A stretch of DNA of 64,000 bases, taken from positions 3,100,001 to 3,164,000 of the forward strand of contig NC_014306.1 in NCBI RefSeq assembly GCF_000196615.1. The letters are read 5' to 3'. The DNA comes from Erwinia billingiae Eb661 (GTDB lineage: Bacteria > Pseudomonadota > Gammaproteobacteria > Enterobacterales > Enterobacteriaceae). Below the pieces are notes generated by a model. It was not told the DNA's origin. It ran no database searches and was given only the letters and a program-made list of their open reading frames with translations. How positions within the stretch are numbered: the stretch's first letter is position 1; every line of letters starts with the position of its first letter. The position numbers and the translations under genes are program-made. This document shows, in pieces, positions 13,174-37,230 of the stretch.

Positions 13174-13205
13174 AGACTATGCAGACTGAAATCACTGGAA
13201 CAATC

Positions 13206-13658: not shown

Positions 13659-13672
13659 TACAGTCACGTCTT

Positions 13673-17509: not shown

Positions 17510-17613
17510 CATTATCTCCACATCGCCGGAACAGTCGTCCGGAGGTAAATTAATCATTTCGGAAATTACTATGATTGTTTTTACACGGATGATAAATCGG
17601 GTTTCGGTCGCAT

Positions 17614-17638
17614 CTATGCGGACTTAGATTCTACAATC
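17614..17638. promoter_or_regulatory. Candidate operator A (TAGATTCTA motif) in the LLM / NTF2 divergent gap
   Basis: CTATG-N3-ACTTAGATTCTACAATC lies about 105 bp before the LLM start and about 100 bp before the divergent gene at 17738. It contains the palindrome TAGATTCTA and resembles elements before the second OYE gene and the MFS gene. Placement and dyad suit the LysR protein encoded at 18495. Confidence 0.5.
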
Positions 17639-17700
17639 CTGTTTCTTCTTTAGGGGTATCTTTGATGTCTTACTCTGCGTCAACAAACCAAAACCACCTG

Positions 17701-17727
17701 CGACACGACACGACAGACAGACAGACA
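17701..17727 (+). repeat. Tandem microsatellite: CGACA x3 then GACA x3
   Basis: Three CGACA units (17701-17715) run straight into three GACA units (17716-17727), ending at the AGGA ribosome site of the gene starting at 17738. The tract is within the 5' leader, where slippage would change leader length and spacing to any upstream element. Confidence 0.85.
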
Positions 17728-17737
17728 AGGAAAAACC

Positions 17738-18472: not shown

Positions 18473-18494
18473 AGCACTTAACGGAATATTCAAC

Positions 18495-19406
18495 ATGCGA
18501 AATACCGATCACCTGGGCGGAATTACCGCCTTTGTCACTACTGCACAGCAGGGAGGTTTTACCGCGGCGGCTGAGAGACTCGGGCTGACAAAATCAGCCG
18601 TGGGTAAAAGTGTGGGTCGCCTTGAAGCCAGGCTGGGACTTAAATTGTTTCTGCGATCCACGCGGCGTCTGAGCCTGACGCCGGATGGTGAGCGTTTCCT
18701 GATAAGTTGTCAAAATGCCATGGATATTCTTGAGCAGGCAGAAGCCGAGTTGACCTCTCATATCTGCCAGCCTTCAGGGCGGCTTCGGGTGGACTTACCC
18801 GCAGCCTTTGGCAGACAGCGTATTTTGCCGATCCTGCTGCAGATTACACGCCGTTATCCCGAACTCGCATTGACCGTCACTTTCAGCGAACGATTTGTCG
18901 ACCTCATTGAGGAGGGTATTGACCTTGTCATCCGCATTGGTGAACTTGCCGACAGCAGTGGGCTGGTTGCCAGAAGGCTGACCACGCAGAAACTGGTTAT
19001 CTGCGCTTCTCCTGACTATTTACTGTACGGTGGAGAACCCGTTTCATCTGAAGAACTGAGCCAGCATCAGTGTGTGGTGGGGTTTCGCCGGAATCAGCCG
19101 ATCTCCTGGCTACTCAAAGAAAATGATGGTCAGATTTCGCGGTATACGCCGCCACCGACCCATGAGTTTGCGGACGGAGATGCGATGTTATCGGCCACGC
19201 TGGCGGGCTGTGGGCTTTCACAACTGCCGTTATGGCTGGTTGGAAAATATCTTGAATCAGGGGAGCTGAAAGAGGTTCTGGTCGGACATTCCGGTGGAGA
19301 AATGCCCATCAGTGCGCTCTGGCCTAAAAACCGCCAACTGTTACCTAAAATTCGTTATGTTGTGGACACGTTGATAAAGGCAGCAGAAGACGGCTTACTT
19401 GACTGA
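18495..19406 (+). CDS. LysR-family regulator of the flavoenzyme cluster
   Basis: 303 residues from the ATG at 18495 (the frame is open upstream but overlaps the preceding gene). The N-terminal helix-turn-helix includes Gly-Phe-Thr-Ala-Ala-Ala-Glu-Arg-Leu-Gly-Leu-Thr-Lys-Ser-Ala-Val-Gly-Lys-Ser; the effector domain is CrgA-like (Ser-Glu-Arg-Phe-Val-Asp-Leu-Ile-Glu-Glu-Gly-Ile-Asp). Its central location among the LLM, OYE and MFS genes and the shared motif before three of them suggest it controls the set. It ends 8 bp from the convergent OYE copy 2. Confidence 0.93.
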   Translation: MRNTDHLGGITAFVTTAQQGGFTAAAERLGLTKSAVGKSVGRLEARLGLKLFLRSTRRLSLTPDGERFLISCQNAMDILEQAEAELTSHICQPSGRLRVDLPAAFGRQRILPILLQITRRYPELALTVTFSERFVDLIEEGIDLVIRIGELADSSGLVARRLTTQKLVICASPDYLLYGGEPVSSEELSQHQCVVGFRRNQPISWLLKENDGQISRYTPPPTHEFADGDAMLSATLAGCGLSQLPLWLVGKYLESGELKEVLVGHSGGEMPISALWPKNRQLLPKIRYVVDTLIKAAEDGLLD

Positions 19407-22054: not shown

Positions 22055-23275
22055 TGTGAGTTCAACTAATGGATGCAACACACCGGTTAAATCGCTCTGC
22101 GGGTGACTCAAAGTCTAGTGTTTTTCTCGGCCTCTCGTTAAGTTGCCTGGCAACACTATTTAATCTTTGCTGGCTGTGAACTGAAAGGTCTGTCCCTTTT
22201 GGAAAATACTCTCTGAGCAATCTGTTCGTATTTTCATTTGAACCACGCTGCCAGGGGGATTGAGGATCACAAAAATAGACCTGTATATCAGTGGCTACGG
22301 TAAACATGATGTGGTTGGTCATTTCAGCACCCCGGTCCCAGGTTAATGTTTTATACAGTTCTGCAGGTAAACTTTGGGCTTGTCTGATAAGTGCTGATAT
22401 TACTGTGGAGGTCTTGTTATCACTGATTTTTGCCAGCATAACAAAGCGGGAATGGCGTTCTACCAGTGTGACGATATAAGAGTTTTTCGAGCCCTGGATC
22501 AGGTCACCTTCCCAGTGACCCGGTATGGCTCTGTCTGCGGCTTCAGGTGGCCTTTCGCTGATGGGTATCGCGCCCGGGATTGACCCTAATCCTTTCCCTT
22601 TAAGCGATGTTGTTCTGGATTTACGCACTGTTCTTCCGCTTCTGAGGCACTGTTGTAGTTCTTTTTTTAATGCTCCCCGGGTTTGTATAAAAAGCGTTTT
22701 ATAAATCGTTTCATGTGACACATGCATTTCCTGATTATCGGGATAACAGCGTTTCAACCAACCGGCGATTTGTTCTGGTGCCCAGCCCTGATGCATTTTT
22801 TCCGCAATGATTTTACACAATGCGGAGCATTCAATTAGCTTACAAGGTTTAGGTCTGAGGGTACTGTTCCACGCTTCCTTATCAGCTTTTGCTGCACGGT
22901 ATTGATTTGCACCTCCGTGCCTCTGTATCTCGCGGCTAATAGTCGAGGGGGCTCTTGATAATTTATCAGCTATTTCCCTGATACTGCGTTTTGCTACCAG
23001 CCCTCTGGATATCTCCTCTCTTTCATCAAGCGAAAGAGATAACCGGTGCCGTTTTCGAGTTGGAGGACGGTACCCACCCGTTTGGTAAATCGTGGGCATA
23101 ATAGAAGAGTGATATCTGTCGAACATTCTGGCGATTTCATGCAAAGAATCACCTTGCTTATACCTGTCCCAGATAATCGCTTTCTGTTCTGGCGTGTAGT
23201 AAATACGGGATCTTTGTTTCATGGTAACGCCCTCCTTGTTTAAGGATAGCGTTGCATCGACCAATTGAACTCACA
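22055..23275 (-). mobile_element. Complete IS30-family element (1221 bp)
   Basis: The ends read TGTGAGTTCAA on each strand and the inverted repeats extend ~25 bp through ATGCAAC. The dinucleotide GC flanks both ends (22053-22054 and 23276-23277), a 2-bp target duplication as in IS30, and the length equals that of IS30 itself. Removing the element restores a TCCGCTATTGGC-ACAGAGCG palindrome-like target, a recurring sequence in this window. Confidence 0.93.
22062..23222 (-). CDS. IS30-family transposase
   Basis: 386 residues from the ATG at 23222, chosen because AGGAGGG stands 7 bp upstream; a frame open to 23264 includes the inverted repeat. Two N-terminal helix-turn-helix regions (residues ~8-50 and 60-100, the second with Ser-Ile-Arg-Glu-Ile-Ala-Asp-Lys-Leu-Ser-Arg-Ala) precede the DDE core: Asp in His-Trp-Glu-Gly-Asp-Leu, Asp in Thr-Trp-Asp-Arg-Gly-Ala-Glu, Glu in Ser-Asn-Glu-Asn-Thr-Asn. 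Intact and probably functional. Confidence 0.95.
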   Translation of the reverse strand: MKQRSRIYYTPEQKAIIWDRYKQGDSLHEIARMFDRYHSSIMPTIYQTGGYRPPTRKRHRLSLSLDEREEISRGLVAKRSIREIADKLSRAPSTISREIQRHGGANQYRAAKADKEAWNSTLRPKPCKLIECSALCKIIAEKMHQGWAPEQIAGWLKRCYPDNQEMHVSHETIYKTLFIQTRGALKKELQQCLRSGRTVRKSRTTSLKGKGLGSIPGAIPISERPPEAADRAIPGHWEGDLIQGSKNSYIVTLVERHSRFVMLAKISDNKTSTVISALIRQAQSLPAELYKTLTWDRGAEMTNHIMFTVATDIQVYFCDPQSPWQRGSNENTNRLLREYFPKGTDLSVHSQQRLNSVARQLNERPRKTLDFESPAERFNRCVASIS

Positions 23276-23495
23276 GCACAGAGCGTACCTTCATCATCTG
23301 GCGTTCTGTCCGCGGTCAGCGAACCCAGTCTTTCTGCAACAGACCCGGCATTCGCGCAAACTCTCTCACATTATTAATCACAAGAATGGCTACAGCCGCT
23401 ATGGCTTGATCCCCATTGATTAACACAACGTGTTGTTAAAAATATCCGCTTCTGGCTGTGAGTTGCCCCCAGAGGAAATTAGGGCTGACGTACGG

Positions 23496-24241
<746 letters not shown>

Positions 24242-24445: not shown

Positions 24446-25516
24446 TTAGTCAGCCAGGGTACTCAACAACGCCTGCTCCAGCTTATCGGCGGTAATCGTA
24501 AACGGCAGATGCTGCAGGCTGTCCGCCGGGAAGCGGATGGATTCAGCCAGCGCTCTGACCCGCGCTTTGCGGTCATCACCAACAAACGGCAGGGTCAGCG
24601 GCGTATTGAAGCGCTGCAACAGCCCCATCAACCGGCTGTCCGCCCGATCGCTGTTTTGCTCGATAATCGATTGCACCCGCAGGCTGAAACCAACCTTCTC
24701 GCCGTGCAGCCAGTGATGTAATTCGGGCTGATGGGTCAGGCGATCGTGGATCACGTGGGCAAATCCCGGCGTGGCAAGCCGATCCTGAATGCTGTTTGCC
24801 AGCCCGGCCAGCACGATATTGGCCTCAATCACCTTTTCCAGCGCCGGCGTCACCCGCTGTTGCGCATTGTCGGCAACGGCCTGCTCGCCCCACTTCTCAA
24901 ACGCGGCCACCGCCTGCCAGGCCGCATAGACTTTCAGATCCAGCGCCAGACGGTCGGGGTTTTGCCGCTGATAGGGCTCAAACTCGTACCATTTGGCCAG
25001 CGCATCGACGATGCCGGACTTCAGATAACGCACGTCGCTGCGGGCAATGACCTCGCTGTCCACCAGCACCAGCGCCGGCATTTTATTGAGCGGATCGCTG
25101 CGCAGATGCCCGCCCTGCTGATTATAAACAATCGCCAGCGGCGACCAGGCGGCACAGGTGGCGGCCAGCGTGGAGAAATTGATCAGCACCCGATCCGGCA
25201 GCGCGTCGTTGACCGCCTTGGCGGTGTCCAGCACCCTTCCTCCGCCAATCGCCAGCACCACCTTGACGTCCTGCTCCTGCACGCTGTTTTGCAGCGTTTC
25301 TATCGCCGCATCGGTGCACTCGCCGTGCAGAAAATTGAGCTGCCAGCGGATGCCCGCGCGTTCCAGGCTTTCGCTCAGCTGCGGGTTAACCGCTTCCCAG
25401 GCCTGCGGCGAGGTGAGGATATGAATACGCAGGCCAAACGGCGCAACAATCTCGCCCACTTCGGCCCGCAGCCCCGCCTTTTGCAGGTAGGCTTTCGGCG
25501 ATTTAATGGCAAACAT
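24446..25516 (-). CDS. Iron-containing alcohol dehydrogenase, HcxA/YbdH-like hydroxycarboxylate dehydrogenase
   Basis: 356 residues of the group-III dehydrogenase fold. Gly-Gly-Gly-Arg-Val-Leu-Asp-Thr-Ala-Lys (about 91-100) is the NAD(P)-binding loop; Thr-Leu-Ala-Ala-Thr-Cys-Ala-Ala-Trp-Ser-Pro-Leu-Ala-Ile-Val-Tyr and Leu-His-Gly-Glu-Lys-Val-Gly are shared with E. coli HcxA, which reduces 2-oxo acids such as 2-oxobutyrate and, as known, can act on methylthio-2-oxobutyrate-like acids. One usual metal His is present in His-Ala/Val-Ile-His. Last gene of the cluster; together with the aminotransferase it could interconvert an amino, keto and hydroxy acid. Confidence 0.82.
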   Translation of the reverse strand: MFAIKSPKAYLQKAGLRAEVGEIVAPFGLRIHILTSPQAWEAVNPQLSESLERAGIRWQLNFLHGECTDAAIETLQNSVQEQDVKVVLAIGGGRVLDTAKAVNDALPDRVLINFSTLAATCAAWSPLAIVYNQQGGHLRSDPLNKMPALVLVDSEVIARSDVRYLKSGIVDALAKWYEFEPYQRQNPDRLALDLKVYAAWQAVAAFEKWGEQAVADNAQQRVTPALEKVIEANIVLAGLANSIQDRLATPGFAHVIHDRLTHQPELHHWLHGEKVGFSLRVQSIIEQNSDRADSRLMGLLQRFNTPLTLPFVGDDRKARVRALAESIRFPADSLQHLPFTITADKLEQALLSTLAD

Positions 25517-25534
25517 GGGAAGTCCTCTTTTCGG

Positions 25535-26203
25535 TTAGCGACGGTAGGCCAGCGATCGGACAATGCGGTCGCCGATCTTTTGAATGACCTGCACCATCAC
25601 CAGCAGCACCACAATCGTTGCCGCCATAATCTGATTGTCAAAACGTTGATAGCCGTAGCGGATCGCCAGGTCCCCTAACCCACCGCCGCCGACCACACCG
25701 GCCATGGCGGAAAAGCCAATCAGCATCACGATGGTCAGGGTAATGCCGGCGATCAGCGCGGGCAGCGCCTCGGGCAGTAATACCCGGCTGACGATGTGCC
25801 ACAGATTGCCGCCCATCGACACCACAGCTTCAATGCGGCCGCGATCGACCTCATCCAGCGCGTTTTCGACAATACGGGCAAAAAACGGAAAGGCGCCCAG
25901 CGTGATCGGCACAATGGCCGCCGTACTGCCCAGCGTGGTGCCAACCAGCAAACGGGTGAACGGGATCAGCGCAATCAGCAGCACCACGAAAGGTAAGGCG
26001 CGGCCGACGTTGACGACGGTATTCAGCACGGTGGCAAGCGTGCGGTTGGGCAAAATGCCGTTCTTGCGGGTTAAAAACAGCAACACGCCCACCGGCAGGC
26101 CCAGCGCCACGGTAAACACCGCCGCCAGCAGTACCATATAGGCGGTTTCACAGGTGGCATTCAGCAGCAGATCCTGAAAGCGGTCCCAGTTTACGCTACG
26201 CAT
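25535..26203 (-). CDS. Methionine-type ABC permease (MetI-like), set 1
   Basis: 222 residues with five to six membrane helices and the conserved EAA loop (Ile-Glu-Ala-Val-Val-Ser-Met-Gly-Gly ... Leu-Pro-Glu-Ala-Leu-Pro) that docks the ATPase. The sequence [12 protein letters not shown] near the C terminus is MetI-specific. It overlaps the ATPase gene by 13 bp and is followed 18 bp later by the dehydrogenase gene. Confidence 0.93.
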
Positions 26204-26979
26204 CTGGCCTGCTCCTCACGCTGGTAGCGGGTAATAAAGGCTCGATCGGCTTCGCCATCTTTCAGCAGCATCTGGCGCAGGCGTCCGTCGGCGCGAGCCA
26301 TAATTTCGGTCACGCTGCCGCTCTCCACCAGTCGGCCATTTTCCAGCAGCGCCGCGCCGTCACAGATACGCTTCACCACGCCCATTTCATGGGTGATCAG
26401 CACGATGGTAATGTTGAGCTGCTGCTGAATATCGGCCAGCAGATCGAGGATCGAGGCGGTGGTTTCGGGGTCCAGCGCGCTGGTGGCTTCATCGCACAGC
26501 AGGTAACGGGGTTTGGCGGCCAGCGCCCGGGCGATGCCGACCCGCTGTTTTTGCCCACCGGAAAGTTGTGATGGCCAGGCGTTGGCAAAGTTTTCCAGAC
26601 CAACCAGCTGTAGCAAGGCGTTGACGCGCTCGCGCCGCTGTTTCGCGGGAACACCGGCAATTTCCAGCGGCAAATCGATGTTGTCGTGAACGGTGCGGGA
26701 ATGCAGCAGATTGAAGTGCTGGAATATCATGCCCATCTGCTGCCGCTGACGGCGCAGCTGCGGCAGGCTGAGCTTGCCAATGTCTTCGCCATCAATCTCA
26801 ATCTGCCCGGCGCTGGGCTGTTCAAGCAGGTTCAGGCAGCGTAACAGGGTGCTTTTTCCCGCGCCGCTGCGCCCGAGAATGCCGAAGATCGAACCATCCT
26901 CAATGGTCAGCGAGACCTGATCTAACGCCGGCACCTCCGTGCCGGCATAATGTTTAGTGATTTGGCTGAGTTTAATCAT
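26191..26979 (-). CDS. Methionine-type ABC ATPase lacking the regulatory NIL domain, set 1
   Basis: 262 residues from the ATG at 26979, which overlaps the binding-protein stop by 8 bp. Walker A Gly-Arg-Ser-Gly-Ala-Gly-Lys-Ser-Thr (36-44), signature Leu-Ser-Gly-Gly-Gln-Lys-Gln-Arg, Walker B Leu-Leu-Cys-Asp-Glu and the His switch are intact. Canonical MetN is ~343 residues with a C-terminal NIL/ACT-like domain that binds methionine and blocks transport; here the chain stops after a short Arg-rich tail. The second copy in the cluster has that domain. Confidence 0.93.
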
Positions 26980-27781
26980 GCTTCTCGTCCGCAACCGGGA
27001 TCACCGAACCGTTGTAGTTCTTGCGGATAAATTCGGCAACCTGCGGTGAAGTCAGGTCTTTTGCCAGTTGCAATACGCGCGGATCTTTCGCCAGTTCAGG
27101 CGTGGTCACCAGCAGGTTGGCATACGGATTATGCTCGGCGGATTCCAGCCCCAACGCATCCTTCGCCGGGGTTAAGCCCGCTTCCAGCGCGTAGTTACCG
27201 TTGATAATCGCGGCATCGACGTCATCCAGCGAGCGCGGCAGCTGCGGCGATTCAATTTCGATGATTCTGATTTTTTTCGGGTTGTCGCTGATGTCTTTCG
27301 GCGTCACCAGCGTCGATCCGGCCTCACCCTGCGCATTCAGCTTGATCACCCCTTTCTGCTGAAGCAACCACAGCGCGCGGCTCAGGTTGGTGGTGTTATT
27401 TGGCACCGCGATGGTCGCCCCCTGCGGCAGCGCCTGAAGGCTTTTCACCTTGCGGGAATAAATCCCCAGCGGCTCAATATGCACGCTGGCCACCACGCTG
27501 AAGGTTTTCCCGAGCGCTTTTTCCTGATCCTTCAGATACGGCAGATGCTGGAAGTAGTTGGCATCCACATCGCCTGCCGACAGCAGTTCGTTCGCATTCA
27601 CCCCACCGTTCAGTTCGACAATATTCAGATCCAGCTTCGGATCGATTTTCTTCACATACTCCAGGATCTCGGCATGTGGCACCGGATCCGCTGCCACGCG
27701 TAACGGCGCCGCATATAAGCTCTGTGCAACCAGTAATGACAGCCCTGCCAGGGTAAATACGGTCTTTTTAATCATCATCAT
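26972..27781 (-). CDS. MetQ/NlpA-family binding protein, set 1
   Basis: 269 residues. A signal peptide (first ~24 residues, ending Ser-Leu-Tyr-Ala-Ala) lacks the lipobox Cys of E. coli MetQ, so this is a soluble periplasmic form. NlpA features: [28 protein letters not shown], and Val-Pro-Asn-Asn-Thr-Thr-Asn. Three ATG codons stand in a row; the third (27775) is best spaced from AAGAGA. Ligand probably methionine-like, but binding residues differ from set 2. Confidence 0.92.
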
Positions 27782-27791
27782 TCTCTTGTTG

Positions 27792-28814
27792 TTATTGACT
27801 GTTGGTATGTTCGGGATAGAAGCGTCGGGCCACTTCGGGATGGGAGCGCAGGCGGCCTTTCAGGTAATTCCAGCCCACTTCGCGTAATAAGGGATTGAGC
27901 GGATCGCTGGCCGGACCCAGCGCCAGACGGGCAAGCGAGTCCGGCAGCTGATAGACCGGCACCACCGCATCGAGCTGGGCACCGAGGAAAAACGCCACCG
28001 ACAGACGTTCCTTTTCGGCCTTCGGTGACACCACGCGATGGATGGTGGCGCGCAGGTAGCCGTTGCTGGCGAGTTCCAGCAGTTCACCAATATTGACCAC
28101 AAACGAGCCAGGCAGTGGCGAGGCGGCAATCCAGTTATCGGGCGTAACCTCAACCTGCAAACCCGGCTGGTCGTCCTGCAACAGCAGCGTCAGGAAACCG
28201 GAATCTTTATGCGCGCCGACGCCCTGCGAAGACTCGGACTCACTGCGGCCAGGATAGCGGATCAGCTTGATATGTTCGTTCGGATACTTGCCATACAGGT
28301 TATCGAAGGCGTTGCGCGGCAGTTGCAGCGCTTCGGCAAAGCCGCGCAGCAGCTCAAGCGCCACCTGGGTCATATCCTGCTGCCAGCCGGTCAGCACGGT
28401 TTTTAATTCGGGCAACGCCTCCGGCCACTGATTCGGTCCCTGCATCCGCTGCCAGGTGGGTACTTCCGGGGTGTTTACTACCGCGTCACGATCGGCACCA
28501 ATATCGAATTGTTCGCGGTAATCCGGCTGGCTGCGGGTTATTTCCACACCAGCCAGGTTATATCCGCGAAAATGCGGCGAGTTCTCCATTTTAACTTTCA
28601 GCTTTTCTTCTTGTGAAAGCGAAAAAAAAGAACGGGCCACGTTCTGTACGTTATCTAATACGGTTTTTTCAACGCCGTGATTAATCAGATAAAAGAAGCC
28701 GACATCGCGCGCGGCCTGGCCGAGTTTCTCAATGGTGTGTTTTCTTTGCTGCTCATCGCCGGTTAACTGGGCGAAATCAATTACCGGCAGCGCGAGCGTT
28801 TCTGTCTGGCTCAT
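27792..28814 (-). CDS. Isopenicillin-N-synthase-family Fe(II) oxygenase
   Basis: 340 residues, N-terminal DIOX_N domain (to ~120) and C-terminal 2OG-Fe(II) jelly roll. The iron triad His202-x-Asp204 ... His259 and the 2-oxoglutarate pair Arg270-x-Ser272 are all present, so the enzyme should be active and use 2-oxoglutarate unless it works in the IPNS way. The family includes hydroxylases, desaturases, IPNS and ethylene-forming enzymes. The gene lies 10 bp before the MetQ set 1 gene, making a small amino-acid-like substrate the natural guess. AAGACT precedes the ATG weakly. Confidence 0.9.
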   Translation of the reverse strand: MSQTETLALPVIDFAQLTGDEQQRKHTIEKLGQAARDVGFFYLINHGVEKTVLDNVQNVARSFFSLSQEEKLKVKMENSPHFRGYNLAGVEITRSQPDYREQFDIGADRDAVVNTPEVPTWQRMQGPNQWPEALPELKTVLTGWQQDMTQVALELLRGFAEALQLPRNAFDNLYGKYPNEHIKLIRYPGRSESESSQGVGAHKDSGFLTLLLQDDQPGLQVEVTPDNWIAASPLPGSFVVNIGELLELASNGYLRATIHRVVSPKAEKERLSVAFFLGAQLDAVVPVYQLPDSLARLALGPASDPLNPLLREVGWNYLKGRLRSHPEVARRFYPEHTNSQ

Positions 28815-28949
28815 AAGTCTTATCCCGTTGGCATGTCATAGAACAACAATGCCATTTCCGCCGGGGCTTAACTACGAAGTAATCCTGCAATCAATATGCA
28901 ATCGGCAGCATTTCATGAATAACAGTGAAATGGCTGAAATAACAGCGGA

Positions 28950-31265
28950 TTACTCGCCGGGATATTTCACAAATTGCGGTGGGTTGTAGGCGGTAATTTC
29001 CGGCAGCGGCTGGTCAAACAGCTGAATATCGACAAAGCAGGTTTGCGCACTGCAGCCCTGGCCCAACCGTGAACTGCCGCGATCCTCGGTCAGCACGTTG
29101 GGATTGCCGTGCTTGTCCATTGGCGCGGCCTGATGCGTATTCAGCGGATCGTACCAGGCGCCCGTCGACATCTGCACCACGCCCGGCAGAATATCCCGCG
29201 TCAGATGGACGCCCGCCAGCAGGGCTCCGCGTGAATTGAACACTTTGACGATGCTGTTTTCGCCGATGCCGCGCGGCTGCGCATCGTCCGGATGCATCCA
29301 GAGCGGTTCGCGCCCGGCGATTTTGGTCTGCTGGCTGACTTTGCCATGATCGTACTGGCTGTGCAGACGCGTGCGCGGCTGGCTGGAGAGCAAATGCAGC
29401 GGCCAGTGCTGCTTCACCGCCTGCTGAGCCTCGTACTCCGGCTGATGCCAGTAAGCATGGCCCGGCGCTTCCTGATAATCGAAGCCGGCGACCGTGGCGG
29501 AAAACAGTTCAATCTTGCCGGACGGCGTCGAAAGCGGTGCCGCGTCGGGATCGTCCCGAAAATCCTGCAACATAATCTGCGGCTGCGCCGGTCGGGCGTA
29601 TTCCAGCTTGCCGGTTTCCCAGAATTCGCTGAATGAAGGCAGCGTGATCCCCTGCTCTTCCGCACGCGCTCGCGATCCCTCGTACATCGCCTGCAGCCAT
29701 TCGCGCTCGTTCCGGCCTTCGGTGAACGCCGGGGCAAAACCGAGCCGTTCCGCAAGCGCGGCGAAAATCGCGTAGTCAGACTTCGCTTCGGCAAACGGCG
29801 CAATATGCTGCTGCATAGCGATCATAAAGCCGTCATTGCTGGCGCTGCCGATATCTTCCCGTTCCAGCGAGGTGCTGGCGGGTAACACGATATCGGCGAA
29901 TTTCGCCTGCGCGGTCCAGAACTGCTCATGCACGATAATGGTGTCCGGGCGCTGCCAGGCGCTGACCAGCTTGTTGAGATCCTGATGATGGTGGAAGGTG
30001 TTGCCGCCGGCCCAGTAGATCAGCCGGATGTCGGGATAGCTCAGCGACTGGCCGTCAAACTCGAAGGGTTCACCCGGCTGCAACAGCATGTCGGCAATGC
30101 GCGCCACCGGGATGCGACGGCTGACCGGGTTCTTTCCGACCGGCAGGCGCGGCCCGGAGAACATCCGCCGATCGGCACCGGCCAGATTGGTCGAGGCATA
30201 GCCGAAGCCCAGTCCGCCGCCGGCGGTGCCGATCTGCCCCAGTAAGGCGGTGGTGGCGACCACTGCCCAGAACGCCTGTTCGCCCTGCCGCGCGCGCTGC
30301 ACGGACCAGGCAATATTGATCATCGTTTTGCGGCTGGCCATCCGCCGCGCCAGCTGACGAATATCGTCGGCCGCCAGCCCGGTAATCTCAGCCGCCCATT
30401 CCGGGCTTTTCACCACGCCGTCGCTTTCACCCAACAAATAGGCTGAATACGGGGCAAAGCCGGTGGTGTAGCGTGCCACGAACGCGCGATCGACCAACTG
30501 TTCAGCAATCAGTACCTGACACACCGCCAGCAGCAAGGCGGTATCCGTGCCGGGCTGGATCGCCAGCCACCGGGCATCGGGCACCGCAGAGAGATCGTTT
30601 TTTACCGGGCTGACGTTGATAAATTCGGTGCCGTTGTCGCGCATTTTATCCAGCCAGAACGCCAGCGCATGGTCGTTGGCTCCGCCGCCGTTCACCTGGG
30701 CGTTACGCAGCGGCAGGCCGCCAATCGCCACAAACAGCTCGCAGTGTTCCGCCAGGACCGGCCAGTGGGTGTGGCGGCGTTGCAGCTCATCCAGATCGCC
30801 GAGAATATGCGGCAGCGTGCGCTCACCGGCGGCGATGCTGTAGGTGTTGCTGCTGGCGGTATAGCCGCCAAACTGGTTCAGAAAACGGTGCAGCTGGCTT
30901 TGCGCATGGTGAAAGCGCCCGGCACTGGACCAGCCATAGGAGCCGCCGTAAATCGCCTGATTGCCGTGCTGCTGCTTCACCCGCGCCAGTTCATCCGCCA
31001 CCAGCGTTAACGCCACGTCCCAGCTGACTTCGACAAACGGCTCTTTGCCGCGCGCGCTACGTGATGCCGCCTTGCCCTGAAGATAGCCCAGCCGCACCGC
31101 CGGGCGTTGAACGCGGGTATTTCCCTGCACCGCGCCAGGCAGCGATTCGCCTATCTTTGACGGCTGACGATCCCAGGCCACCGGCGCAACCTTTGTAAGC
31201 ACGCCCTGCTGCGTGGTCACCCGATAGGTGCCCCAGTGCATCACAGCCAAATCTTTATTGTTCAT
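28950..31265 (-). CDS. BisC-like cytoplasmic molybdopterin oxidoreductase (sulfoxide/N-oxide reductase)
   Basis: 771 residues from the ATG at 31265, 7 bp after the permease stop (the frame is open to 31337 inside that gene). DMSO-reductase family: His-Trp-Gly-Thr-Tyr near the N terminus as in BisC, Gly-Gly-Ser-Tyr-Gly-Trp-Ser-Ser114 with the Mo-ligand Ser, Trp-Ala-Gly-Gly-Asn-x-Phe-His-His-His-Gln-Asp, and Ser-Gln-Pro-x-x-Arg-Leu-His-Ser-Gln-Tyr. No Tat signal and no N-terminal Cys cluster, so a soluble cytoplasmic enzyme like BisC, which reduces biotin sulfoxide and free methionine-S-sulfoxide. Neighbours suggest an oxidised sulfur amino acid as substrate. Confidence 0.9.
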   Translation of the reverse strand: MNNKDLAVMHWGTYRVTTQQGVLTKVAPVAWDRQPSKIGESLPGAVQGNTRVQRPAVRLGYLQGKAASRSARGKEPFVEVSWDVALTLVADELARVKQQHGNQAIYGGSYGWSSAGRFHHAQSQLHRFLNQFGGYTASSNTYSIAAGERTLPHILGDLDELQRRHTHWPVLAEHCELFVAIGGLPLRNAQVNGGGANDHALAFWLDKMRDNGTEFINVSPVKNDLSAVPDARWLAIQPGTDTALLLAVCQVLIAEQLVDRAFVARYTTGFAPYSAYLLGESDGVVKSPEWAAEITGLAADDIRQLARRMASRKTMINIAWSVQRARQGEQAFWAVVATTALLGQIGTAGGGLGFGYASTNLAGADRRMFSGPRLPVGKNPVSRRIPVARIADMLLQPGEPFEFDGQSLSYPDIRLIYWAGGNTFHHHQDLNKLVSAWQRPDTIIVHEQFWTAQAKFADIVLPASTSLEREDIGSASNDGFMIAMQQHIAPFAEAKSDYAIFAALAERLGFAPAFTEGRNEREWLQAMYEGSRARAEEQGITLPSFSEFWETGKLEYARPAQPQIMLQDFRDDPDAAPLSTPSGKIELFSATVAGFDYQEAPGHAYWHQPEYEAQQAVKQHWPLHLLSSQPRTRLHSQYDHGKVSQQTKIAGREPLWMHPDDAQPRGIGENSIVKVFNSRGALLAGVHLTRDILPGVVQMSTGAWYDPLNTHQAAPMDKHGNPNVLTEDRGSSRLGQGCSAQTCFVDIQLFDQPLPEITAYNPPQFVKYPGE

Positions 31266-31272
31266 CAGGCGG

Positions 31273-31941
31273 TTACTCGCGGCGAAGTCGGCGCGCCAGA
31301 CGCGTGCCAAAGGTCTGTAATAACTGGACGATAACAATCAGCACCAGCGCGGTAGACAGGGTGGCAAAGACGTCAAAGCGTTGATAGCCGTAGGTAATGG
31401 CTAAATCGCCGATGCCGCCGCCGCCCACCGTGCCCGCCATTGCGGTTGCCCCCAGCAGGCCGATGGTGGCGGTGGTCAGCGCCAGCACCAGCGAGGACGC
31501 GACTTCCGGCAGCATAAAGTACCAGATGGTCTGGAAGGTGGTGGCCCCCATCGCGTTGGCGGACTCGAGAATACCTTCATCCACTTCCAGCAGCGCGCTC
31601 TCGACCAGTCGGGAAATGTACGGCGCGATAAAGATCACCAGCGGCACAATCGCGCCCGGCGTCCCGATGGTGGTATGCACCAGCAGGCGGGTAAACGGCA
31701 GGATGGTGATCAGCAAAATGATAAAGGGCAGCGAGCGGATGACGTTAACAATCGGGTTCAGCACCTGATGCACAAAGCGGTTGGGCAGAATGCCGCCCGG
31801 ACGGCAGATCACCAGCACGATCCCCAACGGGATGCCGAGCAGCGAGCCAAACCCCAGAGAAACGGCAATCATCACCGCCGTATCATGCAGCGCCAGCAGA
31901 AACTGATCGCCGGTAATGGCGGTATCAAAGAGATCAAACAT
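31273..31941 (-). CDS. Methionine-type ABC permease (MetI-like), set 2
   Basis: 222 residues, five to six helices, with the EAA loop Glu-Ser-Ala-Asn-Ala-Met-Gly-Ala ... Leu-Pro-Glu-Val-Ala-Ser and the MetI hallmark Gly-Thr-Val-Gly-Gly-Gly-Gly-Ile-Gly-Asp-Leu-Ala. It overlaps the ATPase gene by 8 bp. Same length as the set 1 permease but diverged over the whole chain. Confidence 0.94.
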   Translation of the reverse strand: MFDLFDTAITGDQFLLALHDTAVMIAVSLGFGSLLGIPLGIVLVICRPGGILPNRFVHQVLNPIVNVIRSLPFIILLITILPFTRLLVHTTIGTPGAIVPLVIFIAPYISRLVESALLEVDEGILESANAMGATTFQTIWYFMLPEVASSLVLALTTATIGLLGATAMAGTVGGGGIGDLAITYGYQRFDVFATLSTALVLIVIVQLLQTFGTRLARRLRRE

Positions 31942-32959
31942 CGGTGATTTTCACTCCTGACTGGCGAAGAAAATGAATAGCCGCCTCGGTGTGTGCCGCG
32001 TCGCCTTTGAGCTGCACGATCATAAAACCGAGAATGGTGCTCTGCACTTCCGACATATTGGCAAACAGGATATTGACCTCCACCGGAAAGTCGCGGATCA
32101 AGCGGTTAATGATCGGCTGCTGCGCGGTGACGCCGATAAATTCCAGCCGTAACGAGCGCGCGGTTTCCTGTTCCGCCAGCAACGCCAGCGTTTGTTCCGG
32201 CAGGCGATCGTGGATCACCGACTGCACAAAGCTGGCGCTGACCGCGTGCTGCGGATTACCGAACAGGCTCAGCACATCGCCCTGCTCGACAATGCGCCCC
32301 TGTGCCATCACCGCCACCCGGTTGCAGATCTTCTGCACCACCGACATTTCGTGGGTAATCAGCACGATGGTGATGCCATAACGCTGATTGATCTCTTTTA
32401 ACAGCAGCAGAATTTGCACCGTGGTTTGCGGATCCAGCGCGGAGGTCGCCTCGTCACACAGCAACACCGAGGGATTGGTTGCCAGCGCGCGGGCAATGCC
32501 GACCCGTTGCTTCTGACCGCCGGAGAGTTCGTTGGGAAAGCTGTTGGCCTTGTCGCTCAGACTGACAAACGCCAGCAGTTCTTCCACCCGCGTGCGGATA
32601 AACGCCTTATCCCGCCCCTGCAAAATCAGCGGGATCGCCACGTTATGAAACACGGTTTTGGCATTCAGCAGGTTGAAGTGCTGAAAGATCATGCCGATGT
32701 CTTTCTTCACCTCATTGAGTCGTGGCTTGCTGACTCCCTGCAGGGATTCGCCATTGACCCGCACCTCGCCCTGGCTTGGCGTTTCCAGATGATTGATCAG
32801 CCGCAGCAGCGTGCTTTTACCCGCGCCGCTGGTGCCAATCACGCCAAAGATATCGCCCTTTTCGATGGTGAGATCGATACGGTCGAGGGCCAGAAACGCC
32901 ACGTTGTTACGTGAAAACGTTTTGCTGACGTTGCGAAACGCGATGGTTGGCTGACTCAT
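31934..32959 (-). CDS. metN: Methionine-type ABC ATPase with NIL domain (MetN), set 2
   Basis: 341 residues, the canonical MetN length. Walker A Gly-Thr-Ser-Gly-Ala-Gly-Lys-Ser-Thr (about 42-50), signature Leu-Ser-Gly-Gly-Gln-Lys-Gln-Arg, Walker B Leu-Leu-Cys-Asp-Glu-Ala-Thr. From ~270 the NIL domain begins (Leu-Glu-Phe-Ile-Gly-Val-Thr ... Pro-Ile-Ile-Asn-Arg-Leu), which in MetN senses cytoplasmic methionine. It overlaps both neighbours (8 and 4 bp). Whether it is the housekeeping MetN is not known; the operon context suggests a specialised one. Confidence 0.94.
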   Translation of the reverse strand: MSQPTIAFRNVSKTFSRNNVAFLALDRIDLTIEKGDIFGVIGTSGAGKSTLLRLINHLETPSQGEVRVNGESLQGVSKPRLNEVKKDIGMIFQHFNLLNAKTVFHNVAIPLILQGRDKAFIRTRVEELLAFVSLSDKANSFPNELSGGQKQRVGIARALATNPSVLLCDEATSALDPQTTVQILLLLKEINQRYGITIVLITHEMSVVQKICNRVAVMAQGRIVEQGDVLSLFGNPQHAVSASFVQSVIHDRLPEQTLALLAEQETARSLRLEFIGVTAQQPIINRLIRDFPVEVNILFANMSEVQSTILGFMIVQLKGDAAHTEAAIHFLRQSGVKITDV

Positions 32960-33771
32960 TTGAAATAGTCTGGCAGCAGGTAGCCCTGATACTCAGCGTG
33001 GCTCTGGATGTACTGTTTGAATTCGGCAGAGTGATAGCCGGCAATAATATCTTTGGCGAACGGCGCGTCTTTGTTTTTGCCCGCCACGGTGACGATGTTG
33101 ATAAAGTTGCTGGTGGGATCTTCCAGCTTCAGCGCCGAACTGAGCTTCATGCCGCTGGACACCGCAAAGTTGCCCTGGATCACGCCGTAATCGACATCAG
33201 GCAGTGCCCGGACCTGCTGGGCGTTATCCATCTCTTTCAGCACAATTTTGTACGGATTTTCGGTGACGTTTTTCTGCGAAAAAGTAGCGGGATCGCTTTT
33301 CGGGCTGATTTTCAGCCAGCCGATGCTTTGCAATAACAGCGCCGCGCGATACTCATTGGACGCCTGATTCGGCACCGACACCGTTGCGCCTTCAGCCGGC
33401 TTAGTCAGCGAGGTGATTTTGCCGGAATACAGTCCCATTGGTGGGGTTGGCACCTGCACAATGCCGACGTTATCAATGCCTAAGCGATCGTTGACCGACT
33501 TCAGATAGACCGGGTGCTGCATAATATTGGCTTCGATATTGCCACGGCTGACCGCATCGTTAACCTGAATGCCGTCACTGAAATCTTTATATTCGACCTT
33601 ATAGCCCTTTTTAATTAACGAGGGCGCGACGCCTTTCTCGAACTGCTCTTTATACGGACCCGGATTAAAGCCCACCCGGATCAGTTTATTGTCGTCAGCA
33701 TGGGCGGTGGCCAGAACGGCGGCGGAAGATAACAGGCCAAAAACGATCCCTTGCAATACAAACTTGCTCAT
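32956..33771 (-). CDS. MetQ/NlpA-family binding protein, set 2
   Basis: 271 residues with a signal peptide cleaved near Ala-Thr-Ala-His-Ala (to ~25) and no lipobox. Body: Gly-Phe-Asn-Pro-Gly-Pro-Tyr-Lys-Glu-Gln-Phe, Asn-Asp-Ala-Val-Ser-Arg-Gly-Asn-Ile-Glu-Ala-Asn-Ile-Met-Gln-His-Pro, Val-Pro-Asn-Gln-Ala-Ser-Asn-Glu. These loops shape the ligand pocket and differ from set 1, so the two importers probably take different compounds. First gene of the minus-strand cluster; the 240-bp gap to the divergent aminotransferase must hold both promoters. Confidence 0.92.
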   Translation of the reverse strand: MSKFVLQGIVFGLLSSAAVLATAHADDNKLIRVGFNPGPYKEQFEKGVAPSLIKKGYKVEYKDFSDGIQVNDAVSRGNIEANIMQHPVYLKSVNDRLGIDNVGIVQVPTPPMGLYSGKITSLTKPAEGATVSVPNQASNEYRAALLLQSIGWLKISPKSDPATFSQKNVTENPYKIVLKEMDNAQQVRALPDVDYGVIQGNFAVSSGMKLSSALKLEDPTSNFINIVTVAGKNKDAPFAKDIIAGYHSAEFKQYIQSHAEYQGYLLPDYFK

Positions 33772-34011
33772 CAGTAAATCCTTAATGCGGATAATGAAAG
33801 AACGTAATTAAATCACAGCTAAAGTTTGATCCTGAAGGTAAAAAGCCGTTGCCGTTGGGCTTAATTCTGCTAAAGATAGTCATCATTTGAATTAACGCTT
33901 TCTGGCAATGGATAGCGTTATTTCTGCTAACGTCCGCGTGGGTTTTCCGTATTCACTGTTCAGGCGATATGCCATTATTTCCCGCTTAACCGTTTTATTT
34001 CCGGGGGGAAT

Positions 34012-35193
34012 ATGCCTGACTTTGCCGCATCGCAATTAGTGGAAGACTTAGAAGAAAATTTATTTGGCGTGCTGGAAAAGCTGGCGGCAAACGTCGACGG
34101 CACGCAGCTGCCGCTGATCGACCTGTCATCCGGCAGCCCGCGCCAGCCGACGCCGCCGGAAATCATCGCCAGCCTGCAGAGCGCGGCGGAAAACCCCGGC
34201 AATCACGAATATTCCTCATTCTGGGGAAAACCGCAGATCCGCACGGCCATCGCCGCATTTTATCTGCGCGAATACGGCGTGGAACTCGATCCCGATCGCG
34301 AGATCGCCGTTTTTCAGGGATCGCATATTGCGGTCAGCGGCATACCGCGCGCGTTGCTTAATCCCGGCCAGGTGCTGATTTCCACCGATCCCTGCTATCC
34401 CCTTTACCGCTCTGCGGCCAGGCAGTCGCAGGCCGATTTTTACGGCATTCCACTGGATGAAAGCACCGGTTTCCTGCCGGACTTCAGCCGGGTTCCCGAG
34501 GATATCGCCCGTCGCGGCGGCCTGCTGGTGCTTAACTATCCGCACAATCCTACCGGCGCGATGGCGACGCCGGCCCTGTTCCAGGCCGCGCTGGAATTTG
34601 CCGAAAACTATCACCTGCCGCTACTGCATGACTTTGCCTACGCCTCGATTGGCAGCCACCGCCAGGATCGGCCGATCAGCCTGCTGTCGCAGCCCGGCGC
34701 TAAACAGTGGGGCGTCGAGGTGTATACCATGTCGAAAAGCTTCCTGATGGCCGGCTGGCGCTTTGGCTTTGCGGTGGGCAATGCCTCGATTATCAGCGCT
34801 TTTAAGAAGCTGCACACCCACAGTTACAGTACCGTGTATGGCGCCGTTCAGGATGCCGCGGTCACCGCGCTGGAGCTGCCGAGCGAACGCATTGACGCGC
34901 TGGCCGATATCTATCATCAGCGACGCGAGCAGGTTTTTACCAGGCTGGCGGAGATGAACTGGCCGGTGAGGAAACAGCAAGGCACCTTCTTCCTGTGGCT
35001 GCCGGTGCCGGAGGGCTTTAGCGGCGAGGATTTTGTCGGCAAGCTTCTGCACGAGGCCCATGTGCTGGTTGCACCGGGTGATGGATTTGGTGAGCACGCC
35101 AGTCAGTATATTCGCATCAGCCTGACGGTGCAGACTGAGCTGCTGATGGCCGCGCTGGATCGCATTGCGGCGTTGGAATTTTTTGCGGGATGA
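34012..35193 (+). CDS. Class I/II PLP aminotransferase (AlaC/LL-DAP-type)
   Basis: 393 residues, cytoplasmic. PLP-lysine Lys242 in Thr-Met-Ser-Lys-Ser, Asp207 in Leu-Leu-His-Asp-Phe-Ala-Tyr, Asn179-Pro-Thr-Gly, and Gly-Trp-Arg-Phe-Gly are all in place. The Phe-Ala-Tyr and Ser-Lys-Ser-x-x-Met-Ala-Gly-Trp-Arg pattern groups it with AlaC rather than AspC. Divergent from the metQ-like gene, it could transaminate the amino acid delivered by the two importers, giving a 2-oxo acid for the HcxA-like dehydrogenase. Confidence 0.9.
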   Translation: MPDFAASQLVEDLEENLFGVLEKLAANVDGTQLPLIDLSSGSPRQPTPPEIIASLQSAAENPGNHEYSSFWGKPQIRTAIAAFYLREYGVELDPDREIAVFQGSHIAVSGIPRALLNPGQVLISTDPCYPLYRSAARQSQADFYGIPLDESTGFLPDFSRVPEDIARRGGLLVLNYPHNPTGAMATPALFQAALEFAENYHLPLLHDFAYASIGSHRQDRPISLLSQPGAKQWGVEVYTMSKSFLMAGWRFGFAVGNASIISAFKKLHTHSYSTVYGAVQDAAVTALELPSERIDALADIYHQRREQVFTRLAEMNWPVRKQQGTFFLWLPVPEGFSGEDFVGKLLHEAHVLVAPGDGFGEHASQYIRISLTVQTELLMAALDRIAALEFFAG

Positions 35194-35256: not shown

Positions 35257-36102
35257 TCATTTCGGAAAATCAGTGCCGACCGAGGTATCTTTCCAGGCTT
35301 CAACCTGGGAAAGACGCGCTTTGAGTTTCGCCGTTACCGCATCGTGACCCCAGGCGCCCATCACCAGATGCCGCGGCGCATCGTCGGTGTGGGTGATGGC
35401 AATCATTGCCTGCGCGGCGCGCACCGGATCGCCCGCCTGCTTGCCGCTGTTTTCGGCGGTGCCTTTCATCCTGGCGGCGGCGGTTTCCTCGTAATCATTA
35501 ATTTTGCTTGGCGTCTGATGCAATGAACGACCGGCCCAGTCGGTGCGGAACGGTCCCGGCTCGACGCAGGTGACGTGAATGCCTAACGGACCCACTTCCG
35601 CCAGCAGGGAATCTGACCAGCCTTCTACCGCATGTTTGCTGGCAGAGTAATAGCCCGAGCCTGGGAAGCCAATAATGCCCGCCACCGAGGTGATATTGAT
35701 AATGTGTCCGCTGCCCGCTTTACGCATGGTCGGCAGCACTTCGCGGGTCATGGCAAACAGGCCAAAGACGTTGGCATCAAACTGGGCGCGGATTTCCTGC
35801 TCTTCACCCTCTTCCACCGAGGTCTGATAGCCATAGCCGGCGTTATTGACCAGCACATCGATGGTGCCGAATTTCGCCAGCGCCGCCTCAACCCCTTTTT
35901 TAATGGTGCTGCTGTCGGTCACGTCCAGCGCCAGTGCCAGCGCGCGATCTTCCACGCCGGTCACCAAATCCTCAATTTTTGATTTATCCCGCGCGGTGAC
36001 CACTACGCGGTAATTCTGTTTCAACAGCTCTTTTACCAGTTCGCGCCCAAAACCTGTTGAGCAGCCGGTAATAAACCAGACGGGATTCTTGTCAGTAGCC
36101 AT
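35257..36102 (-). CDS. Short-chain dehydrogenase/reductase
   Basis: 281-residue classical SDR. Cofactor loop Thr-Gly-Cys-Ser-Thr-Gly-Phe-Gly (12-19), Asn-Asn-Ala-Gly (86-89), catalytic Ser139, Tyr152 and Lys156 in Tyr-Ser-Ala-Ser-Lys. Thr-Ala-Arg-Asp after the second strand points to NADP(H). Members of this branch are called oxidoreductase YdaD/retinol-type without a fixed substrate. AGGATAACAAC precedes the ATG. It stands alone. Confidence 0.9.
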   Translation of the reverse strand: MATDKNPVWFITGCSTGFGRELVKELLKQNYRVVVTARDKSKIEDLVTGVEDRALALALDVTDSSTIKKGVEAALAKFGTIDVLVNNAGYGYQTSVEEGEEQEIRAQFDANVFGLFAMTREVLPTMRKAGSGHIINITSVAGIIGFPGSGYYSASKHAVEGWSDSLLAEVGPLGIHVTCVEPGPFRTDWAGRSLHQTPSKINDYEETAAARMKGTAENSGKQAGDPVRAAQAMIAITHTDDAPRHLVMGAWGHDAVTAKLKARLSQVEAWKDTSVGTDFPK

Positions 36103-36139
36103 GTTGTTATCCTCAGTTCTGCAGTGTTGAAAATGAGAA

Positions 36140-36161
36140 CCCCACCACGAACGCAGTGGGG
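36140..36161 (-). terminator. Possible terminator after the first GhrA-like gene
   Basis: CCCCAC / GTGGGG stem with a 10-nt loop; on the minus strand it is followed by TTCTCATTTTC. It lies about 150 bp after the GhrA-like stop and 38 bp before the SDR start. Stem short and T-run broken, hence a weak call. Confidence 0.35.
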
Positions 36162-36303
36162 AAAAGCATGACCCAAAGCGTAGTTGCTGAAACGCCTCGC
36201 TGCCTGGTTGCTTTGTGCGAAAGTATGTCCCGACCGACGCGGAGCCGCGGCAGTCGGGCCGATGAAGGCATTAGCGAAGATTCCGTGGCGGCCCTATTTC
36301 TGC

Positions 36304-37230
36304 TTAATAGCCGCGCGACCGGTCAACCAGGCCGATCATCGTTTCGCCCCGTTCAAAGCGGCGAATATTCTCCAGCAGCGCGCGCACCGCACTTTCGGGC
36401 TGGGTCTGGCTGGCGATATGCGGCGTCAGCCAGATGGCCGGATGGGTCCAGAACGGATGATCTTGCGGCAGCGGTTCTGGCGAAGAGACGTCAATCACCG
36501 CCGCCAGCAGCTGACCACTTTCCAGCGCGTCCAGCAGGTGTTGATGATGAAGGTGCTTGCCGCGCCCCACCTGCACCAGCGACGCGCCCGGCGGCAGCTG
36601 GCTGAACAGCGAAGCATTCAGGATGCCTTCGGTGGCGGGCGTCAGCGGCAGCAGGCAAATCAGGATATCGCTGCGTGCCAGAAACGCGCCAAGCTCGGCG
36701 TCACCGACAAAGCTGCTGACGCCGGGGATGGCTTTGGCCGAGCGGCTCCAGCCGGCGCAGTCGAAGCCCAGTTGCACCAGCGGCGCTAAGGCCGCCTCGC
36801 CCAGTTCACCCACGCCCATCACCCCCACCCGACAGTGTGCCGCGGGTTTGCTGCCATGGCCGAGCCACAGCTGCTGACGCTGCTGATGCAGATAGCGCGG
36901 CATATTGCGGTGCAAACCGAGCACGGCGAAGGTGACGTATTCCACCATCCCCTGGGTCAGGCCCGGTTCGATCATCCGCACCACCGGCAGTTCTGGCGGC
37001 AGGCGGGAATAATCAAACTGGTCGGCCCCGGCACCCACCGAGAACAGCACCTTCAGATTCGGGAACTGCTGCAAGATCTCCTCCGGCGGCTGCCAGGCCA
37101 CCAGATAGTCGATGCTTGCAGAATCGCCGATGTCTGGCCACTGGCGGAAGCTGGCGTCCGGGGCCAGTTGCGCCAGCAGATCCGCCCACAGATCGCCGCG
37201 TTCAGAGGCGGATTTATAGAGGATATTCAT
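36304..37230 (-). CDS. GhrA-like 2-hydroxyacid dehydrogenase (glyoxylate/hydroxypyruvate reductase), copy 1
   Basis: 308 residues of the D-2-hydroxyacid dehydrogenase family. Gly-Val-Met-Gly-Val-Gly-Glu-Leu-Gly (about 133-141) is the NAD(P) loop; catalytic Arg in Gly-Arg-Gly, Glu in Ser-Pro-Glu-Pro-Leu-Pro and His in Leu-Thr-Pro-His-Ile-Ala-Ser are present. Start overlaps the GNAT stop by one base (TGATG). A paralogue in the same arrangement is at 51649. Likely reduces 2-oxo acids; substrate not known. Confidence 0.92.
   Translation of the reverse strand: MNILYKSASERGDLWADLLAQLAPDASFRQWPDIGDSASIDYLVAWQPPEEILQQFPNLKVLFSVGAGADQFDYSRLPPELPVVRMIEPGLTQGMVEYVTFAVLGLHRNMPRYLHQQRQQLWLGHGSKPAAHCRVGVMGVGELGEAALAPLVQLGFDCAGWSRSAKAIPGVSSFVGDAELGAFLARSDILICLLPLTPATEGILNASLFSQLPPGASLVQVGRGKHLHHQHLLDALESGQLLAAVIDVSSPEPLPQDHPFWTHPAIWLTPHIASQTQPESAVRALLENIRRFERGETMIGLVDRSRGY

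Follow-up and report, generated by a model that had tools for sequence, protein, structure and literature searches.

Which compounds are handled by a gene cluster that joins two methionine-type importers, a molybdopterin reductase and an Fe(II)/2-oxoglutarate oxygenase? The question is raised by ten genes in a 64,000-nucleotide stretch of Erwinia billingiae Eb661 DNA (contig NC_014306.1, positions 3,100,001 to 3,164,000; hereafter the window, meaning the whole stretch that was analysed). An original prediction, made from the letters of the window alone, saw in them an uptake and salvage route for oxidised or modified methionine. We read the locus as a two-module organosulfur scavenging system, in which module A (the aminotransferase AT, the importer MetQNI_A, the reductase BISC and an HcxA-like dehydrogenase) would import and reduce, and module B (the oxygenase OXY and the importer MetQNI_B) would import a related compound and, more speculatively, S-dealkylate it through OXY; we give this reading a probability of about 0.5. 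The features, in window coordinates, are the following.

34012..35193, plus strand: AT, class I/II aminotransferase, divergent; PF00155; PRK08068 transaminase model 418.4 bits (cut-off 494)
33772..34011, no strand: intergenic region shared by AT and MetQ_A; holds the ATTWAATCACA element
32956..33771, minus strand: MetQ_A, periplasmic NlpA/MetQ-family protein that binds the substrate of importer A; PF03180 E 1.6e-56; TIGR00363 114.9 bits (cut-off 228.85)
31934..32959, minus strand: MetN_A, ATPase of importer A; NIL domain PF09383 E 6.3e-23; TIGR02314 381.1 bits (cut-off 499.7)
31273..31941, minus strand: MetI_A, permease of importer A; PRK10782 180.1 bits (cut-off 212)
28950..31265, minus strand: BISC, molybdopterin S/N-oxide reductase of the BisC/dimethyl sulfoxide (DMSO) reductase type; TIGR00509 930.9 bits (cut-off 1017.55)
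27792..28814, minus strand: OXY, Fe(II)/2-oxoglutarate oxygenase of the PaIPNS-like (IPNS) family; PF14226 and PF03171
26972..27781, minus strand: MetQ_B, binding protein of importer B; PF03180 E 1.9e-77; TIGR00363 177.7 bits (cut-off 228.85)
26191..26979, minus strand: MetN_B, ATPase of importer B; TIGR02314 321.8 bits (cut-off 499.7); PF09383 absent
25535..26203, minus strand: MetI_B, permease of importer B; PRK10782 220 bits, above the cut-off of 212
24446..25516, minus strand: HcxA-like iron-type alcohol dehydrogenase; PF00465

As predicted, all ten frames are open, nine on the minus strand from 33771 down to 24446 and that of AT in the divergent direction. The intergenic gaps along the minus-strand genes are -4, -8, 7, 135, 10, -8, -13 and 18 nt; they are generally short or overlapping, as had been described, except for a single long one of 135 nt, which separates BISC from OXY and is the junction of modules A and B. 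As judged from the reading frames and homologues, the ATG at 31265 is the most likely start codon of BISC, in place of the TTG at 31337, because the longer TTG frame overlaps metI and most homologues align from about residue 25. MetN_B starts at the ATG at 26979, and a TTG frame extends to 26994. The family names given in the original prediction hold in broad terms, but BISC, the HcxA-like protein and MetQ lie below the curated cut-offs, and no NIL domain is present in the second MetN. Both MetQ copies fall short of TIGR00363 and both MetN copies of TIGR02314, and PRK10782 is exceeded by MetI_B but not by MetI_A. The HcxA-like protein scored 168.7 bits with PRK10586 (NF007880; cut-off 429), an oxidoreductase that we take to be YbdH/HcxA, and 231.4 bits with the glycerol-dehydrogenase model (cut-off 336). 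AT likewise remained below the cut-offs of the methionine aminotransferase model PRK09082 (150.9 bits; cut-off 420) and the LL-diaminopimelate aminotransferase model TIGR03540 (362.7 bits; cut-off 593.25). Intact active sites had been claimed for all enzymes; this stands for BISC and OXY, whose residues were inspected, and the other proteins were judged by family match.

The original prediction had named a lack of co-occurrence elsewhere as an argument against itself. On this count it was not refuted: joined clusters (AT, MetQNI_A, BISC, OXY and MetQNI_B) were found at 13 examined loci (L029–L032, L040, L082, L113, L118, L119, L132, L133, which is the same as L079, L137 and the window), with L034, cut by a contig end, left out of the count. 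Genomes under four or more genus labels of the sample (g1, g6, g129 and g171) share the junction of the two modules. A contig scan for OXY gave 56 loci, from which two at 30% identity were excluded; the remaining 54 encode OXY at 40% identity or more. MetQ_B lies within 400 bp downstream of OXY in 50 of the 54 loci (13 of 16 groups of records), accompanied by MetN_B in 39 and without it in eleven. BISC directly precedes OXY in 7/54 loci; eight of the remaining loci are short. At the genome level, OXY was present in 7/7 genomes with MetQ_A and in 8/10 with BISC, versus 54/198 in the family sample (hypergeometric P 8e-5 and 6e-4), and in 10/10 genomes with BISC versus 22/37 in the genus (P 0.002; P 0.014, 0.030 and 0.027 with minimum genome sizes of 4.5, 4.8 and 5.0 Mb), all of these P values ignoring relatedness. 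As a separate observation, the eleven loci in which MetN does not stand behind OXY and MetQ_B are L053–L061, L063 and L075; in them, MetQ_B may share the membrane parts of another importer.

Module A also occurs without OXY. All matches of BISC with E <=1e-260 among the genomes searched (392 of the family, 37 of the genus) amount to 35 loci, the window and 34 others. Fifteen of them hold module A, with AT in 15/15 and an HcxA-like gene (at least 40% identity) in 12/15; seven of the fifteen have OXY within 9.5 kb and eight do not. The HcxA-like gene of L040, L118 and L119, a 45–50% relative, adjoins AT and is not behind MetI_B. At all eight module-A loci without OXY, a LuxS-type gene and a short-chain dehydrogenase (SDR) gene adjoin BISC. 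LuxS was thus present at 8/8 such loci versus 1/13 loci with OXY (Fisher P 4e-5, uncorrected), the latter being the seven loci of the BISC scan plus six further full clusters; the single locus holding both is L133/L079. The LuxS of L094, the sole one scanned, scored 225.5 bits with NF002606 (cut-off 208), and the HxxEH motif reads HTLEHLLA in 8/8 printed cluster sequences. In a quick tree of BISC, the module-A proteins form one side of a branch with SH-like approximate likelihood ratio test (SH-aLRT) support of 99, the branch of L137 being long, and this clade is sister to the BISCs of methionine-salvage and MetQNI loci. The distribution of OXY versus LuxS over the tree amounts to three changes; if only the supported branches are counted, each label still has to change twice or more. 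We read the pattern as a swap of one C–S cleaving unit for another.

The relatives of BISC outside module A lie mostly among methionine-salvage genes. Within 9.5 kb, 17 of these 20 loci contain mtnB, mtnCDE or an operon for a ribose-type ATP-binding cassette (ABC) importer and a kinase. Twelve have the ribose-type ABC and PfkB kinase operon, five of them also being near mtnB or mtnCDE; at five further loci, BISC adjoins mtnB without a ribose-type operon. The remaining three have no mtn or ribose-type marker, and two of these have a MetQNI-like operon (about 36/55/52% identity). Curated models were applied to three of the marker genes, an mtnB, a LuxS and an ABC binding protein; mtnC, mtnD, mtnE and the kinases were named by eye and from an annotated Klebsiella pneumoniae record. 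In that species, plasmid pKLP00155_2 (L167, 2940–16933) carries a BISC orthologue within a methionine-salvage locus with the gene row mtnB, two kinases, 2-hydroxyacid dehydrogenase, sugar ABC importer, BISC, mtnD-type gene, mtnC and aminotransferase. As for BISC itself, GGSYGW is identical to that of DMSO reductase 1eu1, and the Ser-ligand stretch (YS..AA) is aligned; we take the Ser to be the molybdenum ligand and SYGW to have its usual role in the BisC/DMSO-reductase type. By eye, no twin-arginine translocation (Tat) motif was seen in BISC. A more distant relative (51%) on Agrobacterium pAt15955 (L172, 3361–16044) is found with histidine ammonia-lyase, urocanate hydratase, an amidohydrolase and a betaine-type ABC importer, a cluster possibly devoted to catabolism of a histidine betaine or an oxide thereof.

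OXY has the HxD...H iron triad and the RxS 2-oxoglutarate motif of the Fe(II)/2-oxoglutarate oxygenase superfamily: in an alignment of 36 sequences, Y187, D204, H259, R270 and S272 were invariant, and H202 nearly so. No DNA match to OXY was found in E. coli genomes. The nearest solved chains are 9ovh (top) and 6jyv, PaIPNS (6JYV) being the best natural chain; we take PA4191 to be its gene. A 2025 paper describes 9ovh as Anc357, an ancestral protein reconstructed near PaIPNS, and states that PaIPNS binds 2-oxoglutarate and that its function is not known (PMC12329707). The ethylene-forming enzyme produces ethylene from 2-oxoglutarate and hydroxylates L-Arg. Ethylene formation by OXY was considered and set aside, PaIPNS being inactive in a published test.

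Homologues of OXY elsewhere often adjoin transsulfuration-type pyridoxal phosphate (PLP) enzymes, SsuD, MsuE or sulfatase. From the 12 OXY matches listed below 60% identity, six neighbourhoods were taken (L125 and L127–L131). In four of them (L125, L127, L128 and L130), a methionine-gamma-lyase-like gene adjoins OXY, the two such proteins scanned scoring about 440 bits, under the cut-off of 549.7; L131 has an O-acetylhomoserine sulfhydrylase-type gene beside OXY, and L129 has neither PLP type. Nine annotated plasmid loci were hand-picked, one of them by way of BISC; a sulfur or MetQNI neighbour is clear at six of them, weak at two (rhodanese-like; nitrogenase-like) and absent from one. Azospirillum pairs OXY (52.6%) with BISC (56%), an SDR and a PLP enzyme. 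Its seven OXY records comprise three with BISC within 3 kb, one with BISC at about 11 kb and three with no BISC match. Records of Shinella and Pseudoroseomonas have both OXY and BISC, far apart. On a plasmid of Candidatus Chlorohelix (Chloroflexota; L183, 1–6980), an OXY homologue, 59% identical to that of Azospirillum, directly follows nifB/nifH/component 1 nitrogenase-like genes.

The separation of the modules can be followed in Pantoea, where the cluster adjoins proP on megaplasmids and at least 34 listed records have BISC at 76% identity or higher. From the 58 Pantoea plasmid records matching OXY, seven without BISC next to OXY were taken, and all seven retain OXY and MetQNI_B. One of them has a whole hcxA (L176), three have the same truncated remnant (L083, L173 and L178), which probably goes back to a single shared event, and three have none (L174, L175 and L177). 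No remnants of AT, BISC or MetQNI_A at 55% or more were found in the seven stretches. Four BISC-less loci on genome contigs (L028, L033, L035 and L036) also lack hcxA. Because of the hcxA remnant, the reductase half appears from these alignments to have been lost as a block in Pantoea, not gained elsewhere. The decay of hcxA where the reductase half is absent argues that the dehydrogenase belongs with module A, and its truncation or absence beside an intact OXY indicates that OXY can do without it.

The Pantoea records with these genes come from onion, Brassica seed and fruit, and at least two onion-derived ones carry BISC, as would be expected if the substrates were plant S-alkyl-cysteine sulfoxides of the methiin/alliin type, reduced by BISC and then S-dealkylated to cysteine by OXY. 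We regard this as quite improbable, since the onion strains AR24 and AR1a have no module A, the BISC relatives are found in methylthioribose-salvage loci, and the LuxS of the sister clusters points to homocysteine thioethers. The retention of module B in Pantoea strains without module A also bears on whether the cluster is one system at all. Two unrelated operons could have been joined by chance and the junction carried by few transfer events, OXY and MetQNI_B standing outside the module-A pathway; the 135-nt gap and the occurrence of each module alone elsewhere agree with this. Such an accident is nevertheless unlikely: the junction is kept under its four or more genus labels, OXY is present elsewhere in 7/7 of the genomes examined, out of eight, that have the LuxS-type version of module A apart from OXY, and Azospirillum pairs the same two enzyme families. 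Judged from these gene neighbourhoods, modules A and B are units with separate histories, joined here and in other genera. What stands of the predicted uptake and salvage route is a route for modified sulfur amino acids, in that the families co-occur, stay linked in several genera and have relatives among sulfur genes; a single ten-gene pathway does not stand, the locus consisting of two modules.

The binding proteins of both importers differ from ordinary MetQ in the pocket. The pocket-loop Tyr (DYVxPN type) is retained in 0/60 orthologues of MetQ_A and MetQ_B that have a residue there. All 15 MetQ_A orthologues, window included, carry SDG, with Gly replacing the Tyr of the DY type; in MetQ_B, Tyr was found in 0/45, the residue being Gly in 33, Asn in 11 and Ser in 1, and a 46th orthologue is truncated. 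MetQ_A has the pocket motifs IQGNFA and IMQH in place of the IN-type and FQH residues of ordinary MetQ, with Gln replacing an Asn. Tyr is kept in two of three other aligned MetQ-like proteins of this genome, which encodes a MetQ with the standard motif (L117), and in 2/2 at L136/L138; the DY loop is present in each solved MetQ chain with a printed alignment. We assume that the altered Tyr and the neighbouring residues line the methionine pocket and that the Tyr contacts the ligand. These loop changes suggest, at the level of sequence, a ligand bulkier than methionine. A bulkier thioether is indicated because the Tyr of MetQ is lost, BISC has relatives in methylthioribose-salvage loci and a LuxS-type S-ribosylhomocysteine lyase is encoded in the sister clusters. 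A lipobox was seen by eye in neither MetQ_A nor MetQ_B. The NIL domain mediates feedback on the importer by methionine from inside the cell; since MetN_B has no NIL domain, such feedback is less likely for importer B.

These features bear on the reading closest to the original prediction, that both MetNIQs import methionine and its sulfoxide, BISC reduces free methionine-S-sulfoxide, and AT and the HcxA-like enzyme interconvert methionine, 4-methylthio-2-oxobutyrate and the hydroxy acid. The families are correct for it in broad terms, BisC being a reductase of methionine-S-sulfoxide or biotin sulfoxide. Enterobacteria can grow on methionine-S-sulfoxide by means of BisC (PMC5270733), and the met boxes that mtnE and ybdH have in common in E. 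coli (PMC3228920) parallel the combination of AT and HcxA. We consider it rather improbable all the same. The pocket Tyr is gone from both MetQs and MetQ_A has Gln for Asn; simple methionine import by the cluster was rejected on account of the changed loop. In addition to the MetQ with the standard motif, the genome encodes two other BisC-like proteins, with which BISC shares 45–46% identity, and OXY and LuxS would be left without a clear role. Control by MetJ found no support in a strict search for tandem met boxes: no stretch of the window fits the 16-base pattern with 3 mismatches or fewer, a setting at which weaker sites would escape. As to the substrate, the MetQ pocket, the BISC relatives in mtn loci and the LuxS of the sister clusters point to a bulkier thioether, and oxidised methionine is one candidate among others. 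Another BisC-like gene (L116, C3:4350000–4366000; 45%, one in-frame stop) lies, by eye, directly behind an amino-acid-type ABC importer, a second importer–reductase pairing in this genome. As for other signals, the element ATTWAATCACA, a possible operator by its position, is found near the start of MetQ_A in 15/23 aligned AT–MetQ_A intergenic regions, one locus accounting for two of those 15. Promoter and terminator scans gave sites not in excess over shuffled sequence.

Taken together, the gene contexts support an organosulfur salvage role of the locus, as far as sequence comparison can tell. In the two-module scheme, module A would likely import an S-substituted amino acid, its sulfur possibly oxidised, and BISC would likely reduce the imported sulfoxide in the cytoplasm. 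Our best guess for the compound is an S-substituted (homo)cysteine sulfoxide. AT and the HcxA-like enzyme would handle the amino-acid/2-oxo-acid/2-hydroxy-acid end. Module B would bring in a related compound, on which OXY would act: more speculatively, OXY, with Fe(II), 2-oxoglutarate and O2, might hydroxylate the carbon adjacent to the sulfur, and the product might then break into a thiol and a carbonyl, an oxidative S-dealkylation by which (homo)cysteine sulfur could re-enter metabolism. C–S cleavage by OXY might then be the step that we assign to LuxS and the SDR in the sister clusters. An extension of this scheme, which we hold to be doubtful if conceivable, is a sulfoxide branch of thioribosyl and thioether salvage, in which the BISC subfamily reduces 5-methylthioribose sulfoxide (mtn loci with the ribose-type ABC) and S-substituted homocysteine sulfoxide (MetQNI loci), and the OXY family is a 2-oxoglutarate-dependent thioether S-dealkylase replacing LuxS and the SDR.

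Several points weigh against the two-module scavenging reading. The imported compound and the action of OXY on it are both things that we infer, the window proteins lie below the curated MetQ, BisC and HcxA cut-offs, and the co-occurrence P values take no account of relatedness. OXY has no MetQ neighbour in L037, L048 and L078, and in L077 MetQ is directly upstream; MetQ_A is away from BISC in three of the seven MetQ_A genomes (L103–L105). The Pantoea strains that keep OXY and MetQNI_B without BISC indicate that OXY does not need BISC. Some contexts are of another kind: in L107 (G312, 8535–18981), OXY and an HcxA-like gene (55%) are, by eye, beside TldD-, PmbA-, ABC exporter- and TonB receptor-like genes, in L120 and L121, OXY is downstream of an apparent siderophore-type ABC, and plasmid BISC matches at 69% (Rahnella and Pantoea At-9b) have no sulfur context. 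The LuxS/OXY pattern, finally, may also reflect a few losses from an ancestor with both, which fits too.

If the proposed scheme is correct, thioether S-dealkylation would explain the function of PaIPNS-like enzymes, the OXY family being found in Proteobacteria and on a Chloroflexota plasmid. The scheme makes testable both the role of PaIPNS-like oxygenases and a repair step for oxidised thiosugars in methionine salvage, and the cluster offers a limited number of enzymes, importers and possible substrates to work with, together with natural strains with and without each half. In the PMC literature, nothing was found, among the matches listed, on this cluster, on an oxygenase–BisC pairing or on a methylthioribose sulfoxide reductase. 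By eye, an IS30-family-like transposase gene and a small GNAT acetyltransferase gene (22062–23987) flank the left end of the cluster; a part for the IS30-like element was considered and set aside. At its other side, the SDR and GhrA-like genes at 35257–37230 were rejected as cluster parts, no orthologue being found beside full clusters and the best SDR matches being about 30–33%.

Compared with known systems, both window importers share the three-gene architecture and families of E. coli MetNIQ, from which they differ by MetQs without the conserved pocket Tyr and with no lipobox seen, and by a MetN_B without the NIL domain. BISC has the molybdopterin fold, Ser-ligand stretch and SYGW of the BisC/DMSO-reductase S-oxide reductases and differs by forming its own module-A clade. 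OXY keeps the iron triad and RxS of the PaIPNS/ethylene-forming enzyme family and differs by the MetQNI importer that accompanies it. In methionine salvage (mtn) loci, BISC orthologues lie inside or beside the locus, as in K. pneumoniae, whereas the window cluster is without mtn genes, and mtnB is found at another place in the genome; in the main text of a review of methionine salvage, the terms sulfoxide, BisC and molybd- do not occur (PMC6302742). In Shewanella, according to the available part of the paper, one group of megL always clusters with an IPNS-like oxygenase gene, as megL-pcbC (PMC3228920), an arrangement matched by the gamma-lyase-like/OXY pairing in 4/6 divergent OXY loci. The window cluster differs from it in having no PLP lyase and, instead, two importers and a molybdenum reductase.

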